Positions 4,125 through 53,233 of a stretch of 58,058 nt of DNA are shown one piece after another. Location of the stretch: positions 1-58,058 of IMG/VR virus record IMGVR_UViG_3300009169_000026, one strand, 5' to 3'. Made by a program: the position numbers and the translations under genes. The notes under the pieces were generated by a model. That model was not told the origin of the DNA and ran no database searches. It saw only the letters and a list, made by a program, of their open reading frames with translations. Numbering within the stretch: position 1 is the first letter of the stretch; every line of letters begins with the position of its first letter. The DNA comes from a virus.

Positions 4125-4133
4125 AAAAGAAAG

Positions 4134-4221
4134 TGCCGTGGGGGGAGAGTCGAACTCCCACGGGATTTTACTCCCGCTGGGTTCTTAGCCCAGTGCGTGC
4201 TACCAGTTTCGCCACCTCGGC
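4134..4221 (-). tRNA. tRNA-Leu (AAG)
   Basis: Class II tRNA. Acceptor GCCGAGG/CCACGGC with one A-A mismatch, anticodon stem CTGGG/CCCAG around CTAAGAA, giving anticodon AAG. The variable arm CGGGAGTAAAATCCCG is typical. A34 is rare in bacterial tRNAs outside Arg-ACG and would need deamination to inosine for wider decoding. One extra C lies between the T-stem and the acceptor. Confidence 0.85.
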
Positions 4222-6538: not shown

Positions 6539-7223
6539 TTACCAGAGGAGGGAGACCTTGCCCTTGGAGTATTCCTTGAAGGAGCATTCCTTGCCGGTTG
6601 AGTGATGCACGACCTTGCCGTGCTGAACCATGATGGTTCGCACCTTATCGCCTCTCATACCAGACCCGGCCTGTTCCTTACGGACCTTTGACAGGGCAAC
6701 CTGTTTCTTGTCTTTCTCAATTTGCAGAATTCGAGCACGAAGAAGAGACAGGGCGCTTTCCCTGTTCTGCTTCTGGCTTTTGTTGTCTTCTGCCCTTACG
6801 GAGATTCCTGTGGGAATGTGCTTGAGAATGACAGCGGTTTCGGTCTTGTTGCGGTGCTGCCCTCCAGGGCCTGAGCCTCTGGTGAACTGTTCTTCCAAGT
6901 CGGAAGGGTTGATTTTCACCTGGGCTTCGGTTGGCTCTGGAAAGCAGACAACCGTAACCGTAGACGTGTGTACCCTGCCACGCTTCTCGGTAGGGGGAAC
7001 TCTCTGCCAGCGATGACCACCAGCCTCGGAAGCAAACTTCTCTGCTCCCTTACCGGAGATTCTCAGAATGGCAAGACCGGGTGTTTTGTAGATAAGAGCT
7101 AGGTCAAAGACAATCTAGAATGCAGGCCTTTGCATAGATCCCGACCATGTCGTCAAGGATTAGCTTGGCATCGTCTCCGCCCTCGGCGGCTCGAATCTCT
7201 AGAATCATGGCTGTCTGTGACAT
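6539..7223 (-). CDS. minimal class I peptide chain release factor, read by +1 frameshift at CUU-UGA-C
   Basis: The start frame (7223-7104) encodes MSQTAMILEIRAAEGGDDAK, the start of release-factor domain 2, and ends in UGA at 7106-7104. Shifting +1 at CTT (7109-7107) gives a continuous protein of about 227 residues: AGGHRWQRVPPTEKRG (PxT stop-codon motif at ~76-78, as in RF1) and GSGPGGQHRNKTETAV (GGQ at ~120-122, which triggers peptide release). Domain 1 is absent, as in PrfH-type factors. CTTTGAC is exactly the shift heptamer of bacterial prfB, though no SD-like sequence lies just upstream (AAGG is about 17 nt away). A plain frameshift mutation is the alternative. The product would release peptides at UAA/UAG, or rescue stalled ribosomes. 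Confidence 0.85.
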
Positions 7224-7254
7224 AACGATTACCCCTTCAAATAGAAAGTAGGAG

Positions 7255-7346
7255 CGGAAGGCAGAGGACTCGAACCCCAGTCCCGATAAAGGGGCCCATC
7301 TATTTAGCAAACAGAGCCGCCGTCCGATTACGACGATTTACCTTCC
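7255..7346 (-). tRNA. tRNA-Ser (GCT)
   Basis: Class II. Acceptor GGAAGGT/GCCTTCC, anticodon stem TCTGT/ATAGA around TTGCTAA (anticodon GCT), long variable arm with GGGCCCC/GGGAC, T-loop TTCGAGT, G73 as in serine tRNAs. It lies 32 nt upstream of the release factor start. Confidence 0.9.
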
Positions 7347-16172: not shown

Positions 16173-16180
16173 AACAAACT

Positions 16181-16535
16181 TGGACCAGGGGAGAATCGAA
16201 CTCCCGTCCGCAAAAATTAGCTACAGGCGTCTACACATCATAGTCTCTCTTTTGTTTATTCAGCCCGCCTGCTCCGGGAGACAGGATATCGGCAGACCTA
16301 GCTCATTTATCTCGATCTTGGTGCAAGAACCGTGCATTTGCAAGACCCAGCCTGATTTATTACAGTCTTCAAGCCCATTCAGACGGGATTGACTTGGGAC
16401 TGCCTGCTATTCACGCAGCAAGGGCGTAAGTGCTATCGTTTGCGCTTAAAGTTGTCTACTGGCTTTGAGGTGGTTGTAAACTCCCACCGATGTGCAACCC
16501 GTCATTCCTTTCCACGTCGAAACCATGTCTGGCCC
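16181..16535 (-). ncRNA. ssrA: tmRNA (transfer-messenger RNA), tag ANDSTYALAA
   Basis: The 5' end GGGCCAGACATGGTTTCGAC and the 3' end (GGACGGGAG-TTCGATT-CTCCC then CTGGTCC-A) form the tRNA-like half, with acceptor GGGCCAG/CTGGTCC and the G3-U70 pair needed for alanine charging. The message part reads GCA AAC GAT AGC ACT TAC GCC CTT GCT GCG TGA (16442-16410), giving ANDSTYALAA, close to the proteobacterial ANDENYALAA and ending in the ALAA degron. The length is 355 nt, one-piece. No CCA is encoded. tmRNA frees stalled ribosomes and tags the product for proteolysis. Confidence 0.93.
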
Positions 16536-17980: not shown

Positions 17981-19723
17981 TCAGTCATCCCCAACCCAGG
18001 AGAACTGTTTCCACCAGTTGGAACGAAAATCCTGACCCACACCACCATGTTTACGCTGCTCTTCTTTCAGAGCATGACTTTGCTGGGTAGCGTATTGCTT
18101 TATGCCGGAAGAGGTCATGATGGGAGGTACAAACTTGGACTCGACGCCAAAGGACGTACCCATCGAGTTCATTTTCTTCTGGCCCATAGAGATGCCCGCA
18201 AGCATCGCAGACGCAACCTCAACACTGTCCCAAGCATTAACTCCCGCTGCTTCATATAGATAGTTGCCAATAGCAAGAGCCATAACCAAGTCATCGTTGT
18301 ACCCTTTCATTGCTTGAGCTCGATTGTTTTTCCAGACGAAAGTCTTGAGTTCGTTAACCAGTCTCATCGAGTAGATTTTGAGTCTCTTGTTGCGGAAAAC
18401 GTTCTCTAGCTTCGCCAACATCTCATCTCGATTTTTTGGGCCGGTCGTAAAACCAGGGATGTCATCCTGAATATCGCTGGTGGTATAGGAGGTATGCATA
18501 CTATTTCTGCCTATACGTTCATAGAACAGATTAGGGTATCCAGATTTCTTGAGGGCGCTCGACGTTAAGAGTCCAAAGGAGTTGAGCTCTGGGCAGAGTA
18601 GGGCCTTGTTGTATCTAAACCCAACGTCAATCATCAGGTTGGCCAGTTCTTCTGGAGGGACCTTGCCCTGGAATTCACAAACTACCTCATCGGCGGTGGT
18701 ATCAACAACGTGAAAGGAAGAGAAGTCTTCAGCGTCGCCTCTGGACACGTCACCAGAAACTAGGTATCGGTGCTCTGACACAACATCCTTCCAAACCCAC
18801 ACCTCTCCTCTAGGCCCATAGGTCATTATCGGGGCCTTGCAGCCCTTCTCTAGCTCTTCCATGGTATCTGCCGAGACGAAGTTGTCGCCAGATGCAGCGA
18901 ACGAGCACAGAAGCTCCTGGGCCACACCTCTTTCGCCTTTGGCTGGAAGGATTTCGGCTCTTTGTGCCTTAAACCACTCCTCGTCCCTTTCGGGGTGTAC
19001 CTGCCATGGCAGTTCAATCCTGTAGAAATTGTTGGTCCCGGTTCCAGGATTTGGATTTCCGATACCGTCTTCCCCTTCCTTGGCTCCAACCCATAGTTTG
19101 TGAAACAGCGTTCCTACACCGGATGGAGAGGAAATTAGGATGGCCGACCCACCCGTTGAAAGTGTTGGCCAGAGGCCAAGCCAAAGGTCGTCTACTCCGT
19201 CAACGTGAGCCGCCTCGTCAATAATCAAAAGAGAAAGAGCTTCTGAACGGCCTGCGTCTGTACCCGTTGGTACGGCCTGCACCTTGGAACCGTTGGAGAA
19301 CTCCAGATATCTTACGGAGCGAGCCTTGATCTGAGGCATGACCAGCCAACGTGGTAGAGAGTCATACATGCCATTGACCTTCTTAATGAAGTTCTTGGCA
19401 ACCTCGAGTCTGGTTGCGATAACCAAAATGTTCTTATCCCGCTGAAAGACGGCCATCCACAGGGAGTAGGCTGCCGACAGAGTGGACAGACCTAACTGCC
19501 TGCTCTTGTTTGTTATAACGAACCTGTGGCCCTGGAAGGCATGAAGGCACCTATCCTGGTATGGGAAGGTTCGGAAGGGTAGAGGGCCTTTTACGGGATG
19601 GGAAATCTTAACGTACTTGGAGATGAAGTAGGCCGCATCCGTGCCGCAGCGCATTATCTCTTTTACCTGGTCTGCCCTACTTGGCACGACGCCTGTAGTC
19701 GTCGGGCGTTTAATCTTAGCCAT
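17981..19723 (-). CDS. terminase large subunit (T4 gp17-like)
   Basis: 580 residues. N-terminal ATPase: Walker A-like TNKSRQLGLST (~71-81), Walker B LLIIDEAAHVDG (~165-176) and SAILISSPSG as the coupling motif. C-terminal RNase H-like nuclease: YLVSGDVSRGDAEDFSSFHV (first Asp), ALLCPELNSFG and NDDLVMALAIGNYLYE (last Asp). It cuts concatemeric DNA and drives it into the prohead. The size and motif spacing agree with T4-like headful terminases. No small subunit is obvious next to it. The ATG at 19723 is preceded by the stop of the neighbouring gene at 8 nt. Confidence 0.96.
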   Translation of the reverse strand: MAKIKRPTTTGVVPSRADQVKEIMRCGTDAAYFISKYVKISHPVKGPLPFRTFPYQDRCLHAFQGHRFVITNKSRQLGLSTLSAAYSLWMAVFQRDKNILVIATRLEVAKNFIKKVNGMYDSLPRWLVMPQIKARSVRYLEFSNGSKVQAVPTGTDAGRSEALSLLIIDEAAHVDGVDDLWLGLWPTLSTGGSAILISSPSGVGTLFHKLWVGAKEGEDGIGNPNPGTGTNNFYRIELPWQVHPERDEEWFKAQRAEILPAKGERGVAQELLCSFAASGDNFVSADTMEELEKGCKAPIMTYGPRGEVWVWKDVVSEHRYLVSGDVSRGDAEDFSSFHVVDTTADEVVCEFQGKVPPEELANLMIDVGFRYNKALLCPELNSFGLLTSSALKKSGYPNLFYERIGRNSMHTSYTTSDIQDDIPGFTTGPKNRDEMLAKLENVFRNKRLKIYSMRLVNELKTFVWKNNRAQAMKGYNDDLVMALAIGNYLYEAAGVNAWDSVEVASAMLAGISMGQKKMNSMGTSFGVESKFVPPIMTSSGIKQYATQQSHALKEEQRKHGGVGQDFRSNWWKQFSWVGDD

Positions 19724-51391: not shown

Positions 51392-53233
51392 TTAAACGGC
51401 AGTGCCAATGATGTCATTGTCCTTGAACTTGATCTCAAATACCGACCCTGGAGGTCCAAATAGAATTCCACGAAAGGTATTAGCAGGGATGTCATACTGC
51501 TCGGTACTGTAGCTTCTATTGCTGTTGTTTCCATACACGTTCTGTAGGCTTACGGAGACAACCGAAATAACACCCTGGGTGTTGTAGATTATGTTCTGTA
51601 TGTCTGCAAGTACGATCGGCTGGTCAATCTCGAAGTTCTTAACGTCAAAGTAGCTCTTGAGCTTCTGTAGTACGTTGCGTAGCACAAGCTGCCTATTCTG
51701 CATTGGATCTGTGACTATCTGAAACTGGACTTTAAGGTTGATTATTCTAGCGTCCAGAATGTCGATAGCGTCGGATATCATCCGGTATTGATTCAGATAG
51801 GAAGCAAGGTTCTTCTTGAGAGTGTCGGGCGCAATCACCAACTGGCTCTGTGCATTTCTACACACAACAAACAACTGTGAAGCCATTGGGTTGTTGGGGT
51901 TTGTCTGTAGGCTGGCCCTGTAAACACGTCCAAAGTTTGAAGGAAGGGTGTAAATGCGTGCCAGCAAATCCTCTTTTGAGGCAATGCGATTTTGAGCACC
52001 TGCAAATGCTGGTATCTTGGCCTTAAGCTGCTGAACCGTTGGAGCGTCCTCACCACCAGCAGCCCTTTTTTCGTTGACAACATCCAGCGAGTTGCGAACA
52101 AACTGCGCCACGGCTGAGGTTGGGTTATTTGGAAAGGATAGGTCTAGTACCGTTATGCTCCTAATGCTTCGTGGTTCAACGTTGTGCGACAACCCGCCAC
52201 CATAGCGGTACGTTACCGATACGCTGGTATTCGGGGCCAAGACGCCAAAGGTCGTGGTCTGTAGAAGGTTGCCAGGGTTTAAGGTAAACCTGGACAGCAC
52301 TTTCTTTCCGTACAGCGGCAGAGCAAACTCGCTGGGATCTGGAATGGCATCGTCGTTCAAGGTCTCTGCACTTCCACCGCCGAACGTCAGCGTTGTTAGC
52401 TTGGTATTTAGGCTTGTGTCTGTGATGAAACGATATGGAGCTGGTATTGGCACCAGATTCTCACTGACCATCTGATGGTCGGGAGCAATGTTTGTTACTG
52501 CCTTATAGACCGTATCTTGCGTGAGATAGTCAACCCGATGATATTCGTTTCCTACCGTATCCGTTACTCGTGTAACCTCTGTAACGTTCTCATTCGACAG
52601 GGTAAACTTCTTGAATGCCTTAAACGTTCCAACAGAAAATGATTCCGTAGCCCTAAAACCGGATATGCACACCCCGTTCAAAGACATAATGAAATTCGTT
52701 GGGTTGTTGTTCTGGTCACGGCTGCCAACGGTTATCGTGGCCTCCAGATCACCGTCACCATTTGTCCTTGTAAAGTCCAGGTTTTCGGTTAGCTGAAACT
52801 CTGTCCCGTTCTGGGCTTTCACAACCGTGCCCTCATAGATCATTGGCATTGCCGTTGGATCGGGTACTGGAGGGGAGGAGCCGGAAGCGGGAATCTTGAC
52901 GTAGAATGTGCAGTCAACAACTGCTGGTGCAGCTCCAACGATTGGAACACCAGCCTTCTTGAGATGCCTCTCGATGTTGTTGCTCTCGGTCGCCGTGTCA
53001 GGGAAGTTTTCGTGAAATTGATGGTCTAGGTAGAAAGACTGCACGTCGCCGACGTAGGCGGCCAAGTCCAAAAGCAACCCGCCAAGTCCAGCCTCCGAAA
53101 AGTCCTTTATCTGATCAGGGAAGTAAGTACGAGCATACTCTAGGAGGTCTGCCCTTAGCGCATTGAAATCCTTGTTAAGGTACTTGCGCTCCTTGATTGT
53201 TTTGAGGACCTGTTTTTTGCTATCTGTTGCCAT
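51392..53233 (-). CDS. baseplate wedge protein (T4 gp6 / Baseplate_J-like)
   Basis: 613 residues. The N-terminus KTIKERKYLNKDFNALRADL, YARTYFPDQIKDFSEAGLGG and LLLDLAAYVGDVQSFYLDHQ is the typical gp6 opening ('Y..~...DFSE...G.mLlel.AYvGD.LsfY.d'). The central SVTYRYGGGLSHNVEPRSI and later LPSNFGRVYRASL are gp6/J-like. gp6 forms the inner ring of the baseplate. It is followed upstream by gp25-like in the usual order. Confidence 0.88.
   Translation of the reverse strand: MATDSKKQVLKTIKERKYLNKDFNALRADLLEYARTYFPDQIKDFSEAGLGGLLLDLAAYVGDVQSFYLDHQFHENFPDTATESNNIERHLKKAGVPIVGAAPAVVDCTFYVKIPASGSSPPVPDPTAMPMIYEGTVVKAQNGTEFQLTENLDFTRTNGDGDLEATITVGSRDQNNNPTNFIMSLNGVCISGFRATESFSVGTFKAFKKFTLSNENVTEVTRVTDTVGNEYHRVDYLTQDTVYKAVTNIAPDHQMVSENLVPIPAPYRFITDTSLNTKLTTLTFGGGSAETLNDDAIPDPSEFALPLYGKKVLSRFTLNPGNLLQTTTFGVLAPNTSVSVTYRYGGGLSHNVEPRSIRSITVLDLSFPNNPTSAVAQFVRNSLDVVNEKRAAGGEDAPTVQQLKAKIPAFAGAQNRIASKEDLLARIYTLPSNFGRVYRASLQTNPNNPMASQLFVVCRNAQSQLVIAPDTLKKNLASYLNQYRMISDAIDILDARIINLKVQFQIVTDPMQNRQLVLRNVLQKLKSYFDVKNFEIDQPIVLADIQNIIYNTQGVISVVSVSLQNVYGNNSNRSYSTEQYDIPANTFRGILFGPPGSVFEIKFKDNDIIGTAV

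Follow-up and report, generated by a model that had tools for sequence, protein, structure and literature searches.

A compact RF1-like release factor family of phages and bacteria with a conserved, prfB-like stop codon bypass

A 58-kb virus fragment in IMG/VR (record IMGVR_UViG_3300009169_000026, positions 1 to 58,058) comes from a phage with a contractile tail and contains a release factor-like gene that is interrupted by a TGA stop codon after 39 codons and resumes in the +1 frame. We call this whole stretch of 58,058 nucleotides (nt) the window. Its gene raises the question of why a release factor should be encoded so that it can be completed only by bypassing a stop codon, and what that stop might sense. 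The parts of the gene, all on the minus strand, are as follows.

7232-7237, minus strand: ribosome-binding site AAGGGG, 8 nt 5' of the ATG at 7223-7221, read from the sequence
7104-7223, minus strand: N-half in frame 0, 39 codons and TGA, with the start of class-I release factor domain 2 (EIRAAEGGDDA), from the prfA/PCRF match
7103-7109, minus strand: putative shift site CTT TGA C, with a +1 slip of the CUU tRNA onto UUU and GAC (7105-7103) as the next codon, from the sequence and family comparison
6539-7105, minus strand: C-half in the +1 frame, 188 codons and TAA (6541-6539), with the remainder of domain 2, the GGQ domain 3 and domain 4, from profile and structure-database matches
6989-6997, minus strand: PPT, an RF1-type stop codon recognition motif (PxT), from the sequence and alignment
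6857-6865, minus strand: GGQ, the peptidyl-tRNA hydrolysis motif, invariant in 46 aligned relatives

The original prediction, made from the letters of the window alone, read GAT TGT CTT TGA CCT at 7115-7101 of the minus strand and proposed that a +1 shift at CTT joins two halves of an RF1-like factor with a PPT motif. The reading is exact, and there is homology on both sides of the joint. Translation in frame 0 from ATG 7223 gives MSQTAMILEIRAAEGGDDAKLILDDMVGIYAKACILDCL, ending at the TGA. When CTT(T) is taken as one step, the joined protein is 227 amino acids (aa) long and its best NCBIfam match is TIGR00019 (prfA) with 200.6 bits over residues 4-210, in agreement with the predicted RF1-like (PxT) product; GGQ is also present. 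With domain 1 missing, the alignment begins only at profile position 112 and the score does not reach the cut-off of 423 bits. The Pfam domains PCRF and RF-1 both match the joined protein, and its best solved-structure matches are RF1 chains in the PDB. The N-half alone matches the corresponding part of prfA and PCRF (E values of 1e-4 and 6e-4), showing that both halves are genuine release factor sequence. Taken singly, the two halves resemble the RF1 segments to which they should correspond, and this homology demands the +1 joint. The frame of the C-half contains no start codon from its opening, 8 nt 5' of the TGA, until GTG 6919, 187 nt downstream, so that the C-half is not obtainable by separate initiation. 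TGA is an ordinary stop codon in the window, ending 27 of 55 open reading frames. The heptamer CTTTGAC alone is not rare, with 14 copies on the minus strand of the window; what exceeds chance is its placement at the joint and its conservation. The window gene is predicted to encode a compact RF1-like release factor without domain 1.

Relatives were sought in viral contigs (three scans) and in bacterial genomes (one scan). We counted 111 distinct genes, including the window gene, in which the N-terminal motif (EGG..A) and GGHRWQ/GGQ were both findable. The query alignment for two of the scans began downstream of the place where the shift usually lies, so the sampling did not select for it. Only identical duplicates were dropped; near-copies remain, and the p-values below are therefore nominal. 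The relatives, to which we refer by L numbers where needed, span phages up to 635 kb, Myxococcota, and other bacteria. A +1 shift is needed in 95 of the 111 and a -1 shift in none of these (L177, in the third frame, was set aside and is outside the 111). In all 95, CTT directly precedes the first stop of the N-half frame, which is TGA in 73, TAG in 19 and TAA in 3. The original prediction had likened the heptamer to that of prfB, the gene for RF2, and had proposed an alignment of relatives to see whether CTTTGAC and the joint are conserved; the likeness is borne out by this uniform CTT-stop and the same +1 shift. The shift lies at the place seen in the window gene in 92 of the 95 and about 33 nt further downstream in L046, L170 and L178, again after a G-rich run. 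Another 15 of the 111 have an in-frame stop within a single frame and would need readthrough.

The nucleotides around the site are also constrained. CTT makes up 13% of leucine codons elsewhere in the family genes compared with 95 of 95 at the site (nominal binomial p about 1e-84, uncorrected for relatedness). A Shine-Dalgarno (SD)-like 4-mer is found within 11 nt 5' of CTT in 82 of 95 genes, compared with 12.9% at other in-frame sites, and an SD-like 5-mer in 58 of 95 (61%) compared with 3.4%. The usual form upstream is CGG AGG NNN CTT, placing 3 nt between the SD-like run and CTT. Where codon -3 encodes arginine it is AGG in 49 of 52 genes (9.7% of arginine codons elsewhere), and at codon -4 it is CGG in 69 of 80 (18% elsewhere). 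This skewed choice of AGG and CGG indicates that the nucleotides themselves are selected, beyond the Arg-Arg protein sequence. A C directly follows the stop in 70 of 95. For prfB, the same 3-nt spacing and a C at the position following the stop have been described (PMC12421855). The window gene and 12 others (13 of 95) contain no SD-like stretch at this place. Its absence had been remarked on in the original prediction, correctly for the window gene; it is not a feature of the family. Comparison of these sequences makes a conserved stop bypass with prfB-like signals well supported.

We examined the placement of this family by a FastTree phylogeny. Its members formed one clade (support 100) apart from RF1 (95), RF2 (98) and PrfH. 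Several records of the phage collection (e.g. OR846590, CAKLQH020000004) contain host prfA or prfB next to housekeeping genes and have the look of contaminating bacterial DNA; these matches were used only as outgroups. Known identities were considered in turn, and membership in PrfH or ArfB was rejected. A full-length RF1 does not fit a product that is below the TIGR00019 cut-off and has no domain 1, although PxT and GGQ are present. RF2 does not fit a product that is RF1-like, without domain 1 and not of the SPF type. An ArfB/ICT1-like identity, with a GGQ domain and basic tail but no domain for codon recognition, is excluded by the PCRF (domain 2) match and PPT. Membership in PrfH is contradicted by a TIGR03072 score of 80.6 against a 166.7-bit cut-off, by the separate clade and by a location that, in the bacterial genomes searched, is not beside RtcB. 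The genomes of five Nannocystis and of Minicystis contain five RF-1-domain genes each, which by length and neighbours fit RF1, RF2, the present family, PrfH beside RtcB, and ArfB. By comparison, 19 of 20 large phage records contain exactly one RF-1-domain gene, a member of this family.

A chromosomal block of 12.5 kb that is conserved in the five Nannocystis species contains the gene, so the family is not confined to phages; it occurs on bacterial chromosomes and megaplasmids. Among the Nannocystis copies the ratio of nonsynonymous to synonymous substitution rates is about 0-0.05 in the N-half and 0.13-0.22 in the C-half. Both values are well below 1, so purifying selection acts on each side of the joint. 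On the tree, myxococcal genes are intermixed with phage genes; this suggests that copies have been exchanged, although many deep forks have weak support.

Sister genes of L046, L170 and L178 contain a single in-frame TGA (TAG in L032) at the downstream place, mostly followed by CT. Cultured bacteria are among the carriers of such in-frame stops. A Variovorax megaplasmid (four records/strains) has a family gene with a single in-frame TGA (...AKG-TGA-LNLEV...), and a plasmid of Rhizobium leguminosarum, pRlX5, also has one with one in-frame TGA. RefSeq splits the Variovorax gene (L250, 2965-3669) into a 'hypothetical protein' and a 'peptide chain release factor-like protein'. We considered whether TGA has been reassigned to sense in this group. 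The ribonucleotide reductase genes of four in-frame-stop records (L124, L238, L030, L051) have no inner stop; hence TGA does not generally encode an amino acid in those records. TGA also ends neighbouring genes in several in-frame-stop records, and this together with the cultured Variovorax and Rhizobium led us to reject reassignment, which could still apply to some short fragments. Four members (L024, L124, L238, L174), including those of a 635-kb phage (LR745206) and a Bacteroidetes contig from a metagenome-assembled genome, carry a pair of in-frame TGA codons at fixed positions, about eight codons from each other. In L182, from Armatimonadetes, the sequence ...RRL-TGA-LEQ runs on without a change of frame where the shift normally occurs, and is perhaps a shift site converted to readthrough.

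What, then, could the stop be for? We consider it probable that the gene encodes a compact, domain-1-less RF1-like factor, distinct from RF1, RF2, PrfH and ArfB, that is gated as a termination-failure switch for a back-up release factor. Synthesis would be gated by the stop kept near codon 40. A host release factor acting quickly at this stop would release a useless 39-aa peptide. Slow termination, caused by release factor shortage, release factor inactivation or damaged ribosomes, would allow the peptidyl-tRNA on CUU to slip to UUU. This step is transferred from prfB, for which a slip of the CUU tRNA to UUU is established as long as no release factor has entered the A site. The full factor would then be made and could restore termination or rescue stalled ribosomes. 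In the window gene the factor watched would be RF2, which reads UGA; in the side lineage the same gate could operate by in-frame UGA readthrough with no change of frame. We infer both the sensing by the stop and the activity of the product. A broader proposal, on which our judgement is evenly divided, is that this is a further family of bacterial and phage class-I release factors almost always needing stop bypass, in which the stop (UGA or UAG, seldom UAA) and the bypass mode (+1 shift or readthrough) have both changed from lineage to lineage, and which forms a general termination-failure switch carried by phages to keep termination proper during infection.

The identity of the stop bears on what could be sensed. 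Among the shifted genes it changed at least 18 times on the tree, yet a stop was always kept. The window's own group, which is weakly supported, contains UGA (window), UAG (L009, L128) and UAA (L003). UAA, which both host factors read, occupies 3 of the 95 sites compared with 27% of nearby gene ends in UGA-type phages. That UGA and UAG are far commoner than UAA argues for a gate that monitors only one host factor in each case. We infer that it needs slow termination by a single host factor, with no fixed rule as to which.

Several observations weigh against the termination-failure switch. The shift of the window gene may be weak given that it has no SD-like element. Stop choice had no relation to local stop usage. 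If the product reads UAG and UAA, the 19 members with UAG and the 3 with UAA would show self-regulation and not cross-regulation, and one sensing logic may not fit all members. One gene of the 111, the phage gene L120, is uninterrupted, and the divergent L048 and L049, which are outside the 111, read through without a stop.

A narrower form of sensing is that the UGA senses host RF2 only and that the gene is never subject to feedback from its RF1-like product, a dedicated cross-regulation. As the original prediction pointed out, the UGA of the window gene does not match the UAA/UAG specificity expected of a PPT product, and this mismatch proved to be the commonest state of the family (73 of 95 have UGA and most factors are PPT-type). 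Factors with an S-first, RF2-like motif use UAG or UAA in 6 of 9 cases compared with 16 of 84 P-type factors (Fisher p 0.005), as if each avoided the stop it reads. However, the association was not significant with phylogenetically independent pairs (median p 0.25), and those 16 P-type factors use UAG or UAA, as do L003, L009 and L128 in the window's group. Where the factor is of the PxT type, a UAG stop would be recognised by host RF1 and probably also by the product. Thus the conservation of the stop agrees with the earlier idea of sensing host RF2, whereas the repeated changes of its identity, also among the window's kin, do not, and we think an exclusive cross-regulation rather unlikely.

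Constitutive recoding, in which the stop is a mere pausing device with a fixed shift rate and no sensing, would explain why stop identity drifts freely and does not track local stop usage. It does not account for the strong depletion of UAA or for a stop that is nearly always present even though L120 demonstrates that an uninterrupted gene is possible, and we regard it as unlikely. We would give similarly little weight to a factor specialised, like PrfH, for rescuing ribosomes whose decoding centre has been cut or modified by toxins or phage defence. Domain 1 is likewise missing from PrfH (PMC1586002), whose operon confers protection against colicin E3 on E. coli (PMC9223846). The phage gene sits among tRNA arrays and a transfer-messenger RNA (tmRNA) gene, suggesting a translation-repair kit, and a gate opened by failed termination would suit such a role. 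However, the sequence is far nearer RF1 than PrfH, and RtcB did not adjoin the family gene in the bacterial genomes searched, the neighbours of the window gene not being searched for RtcB. In Nannocystis and Minicystis the PrfH-like RF-1-domain gene beside RtcB is a separate locus.

Two separate proteins, made by reinitiation or translational coupling, might be expected from the brief overlap of the frames and from the annotation of the Variovorax gene as two coding sequences, but this is very improbable: the window has no start near the joint, an ATG lies within 24 nt in only 4 of 92 members, and the split falls inside domain 2. Although a one-base shift looks like an indel, a sequencing error or decayed pseudogene is scarcely credible when assemblies made independently, complete genomes such as that of Minicystis rosea among them, show the same +1 shift at one and the same codon in about 90 genes, with purifying selection on both sides of the joint.

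We compared the family with known recoded and accessory release factors. It resembles prfB in the CTT-stop, usually TGA followed by C, in the SD-like element 3 nt before CTT and in that the product is a release factor (PMC12421855). It differs in that the product is RF1-like without domain 1 and in that the site lies in domain 2, whereas the prfB site is at codon 26 in domain 1, which suggests that the family shift arose separately or was moved. TAG is found at 19 of the 95 family sites and in none of 8,164 prfB genomes (PMC12421855), and stop and predicted specificity are usually mismatched in the family, unlike in prfB. RF1 is the closest sequence family and shares PxT and GGQ, but the present proteins are about 225 aa long, have no domain 1 and group apart from it in the tree. 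No programmed frameshift is known from RF1 genes (PMC12421855, PMC5009743); such frameshifting has been reported for prfB and not for prfA (PMC12421855), and in the PRFect study every CUU-stop site in RECODE was prfB (PMC10885494). The family is similar to PrfH (RF-H, of RtcB2-PrfH operons) in length, in the missing domain 1 and as an accessory factor. PrfH genes, however, are in another clade, coexist with family genes in the same genomes and have not been described as frameshifted. The release factor of a giant amoeba virus has an unrelated protein fold, and both it and its host are of eukaryotic type. Its gene is nevertheless a viral release factor gene that needs recoding, by readthrough and frameshift (PMC5009743; PMC3521657 on giant-virus termination). 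Apart from that gene, release factor genes with an in-frame UGA in one frame, or an RF1/UAG counterpart, were not known to a 2016 review (PMC5009743). We found no published account of phage release factor recoding or of this family in the literature searched, with preprints and many subscription papers outside its reach, and priority is not proven.

RF1-like genes with UAG and UAA shift sites, together with in-frame-UGA relatives, in phages and cultured bacteria contrast with a frameshift held to be special to prfB. If the factor is indeed made on termination failure, it would provide a direct handle on the limits of termination during large-phage infection and an independent test of why release factor genes are recoded. 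Gene callers split or miss the family gene, as RefSeq did with the Variovorax copy.

The window contains 16 tRNA genes called by ARAGORN and a tmRNA gene. Features outside the release factor gene are listed here.

17981-19723: terminase large subunit
51392-53233: baseplate protein
16180-16535, minus strand: tmRNA, the second ribosome-rescue gene of the window phage
7256-7346, minus strand: tRNA-Ser(GCT)-like gene directly 5' of the release factor gene, read from the sequence, with a sub-threshold Rfam class-II tRNA match
7452-7367, minus strand: class-II tRNA-like gene with anticodon GGA (Ser), 5' of the release factor gene, read from the sequence
4133-4221, minus strand: tRNA-Leu with anticodon AAG, which would read the CUU of the shift site, from ARAGORN and the anticodon loop

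The two class-II tRNA-like genes (GGA and GCT) were not called by ARAGORN and are under the Rfam cut-off. In a DNA search of the phage collection the only match was a short one, between the upstream tRNA-like gene and Xanthomonas phage X1. An AAG anticodon is unusual for tRNA-Leu in bacteria, where CUU is usually read by GAG. This tRNA would pair well with UUU after the slip and may offset the absent SD-like element. In relatives (L003, L012, L023, L036, L041, L044) the release factor gene is often inside tRNA arrays, and in L013 (4221-4579) it immediately follows a tmRNA gene.
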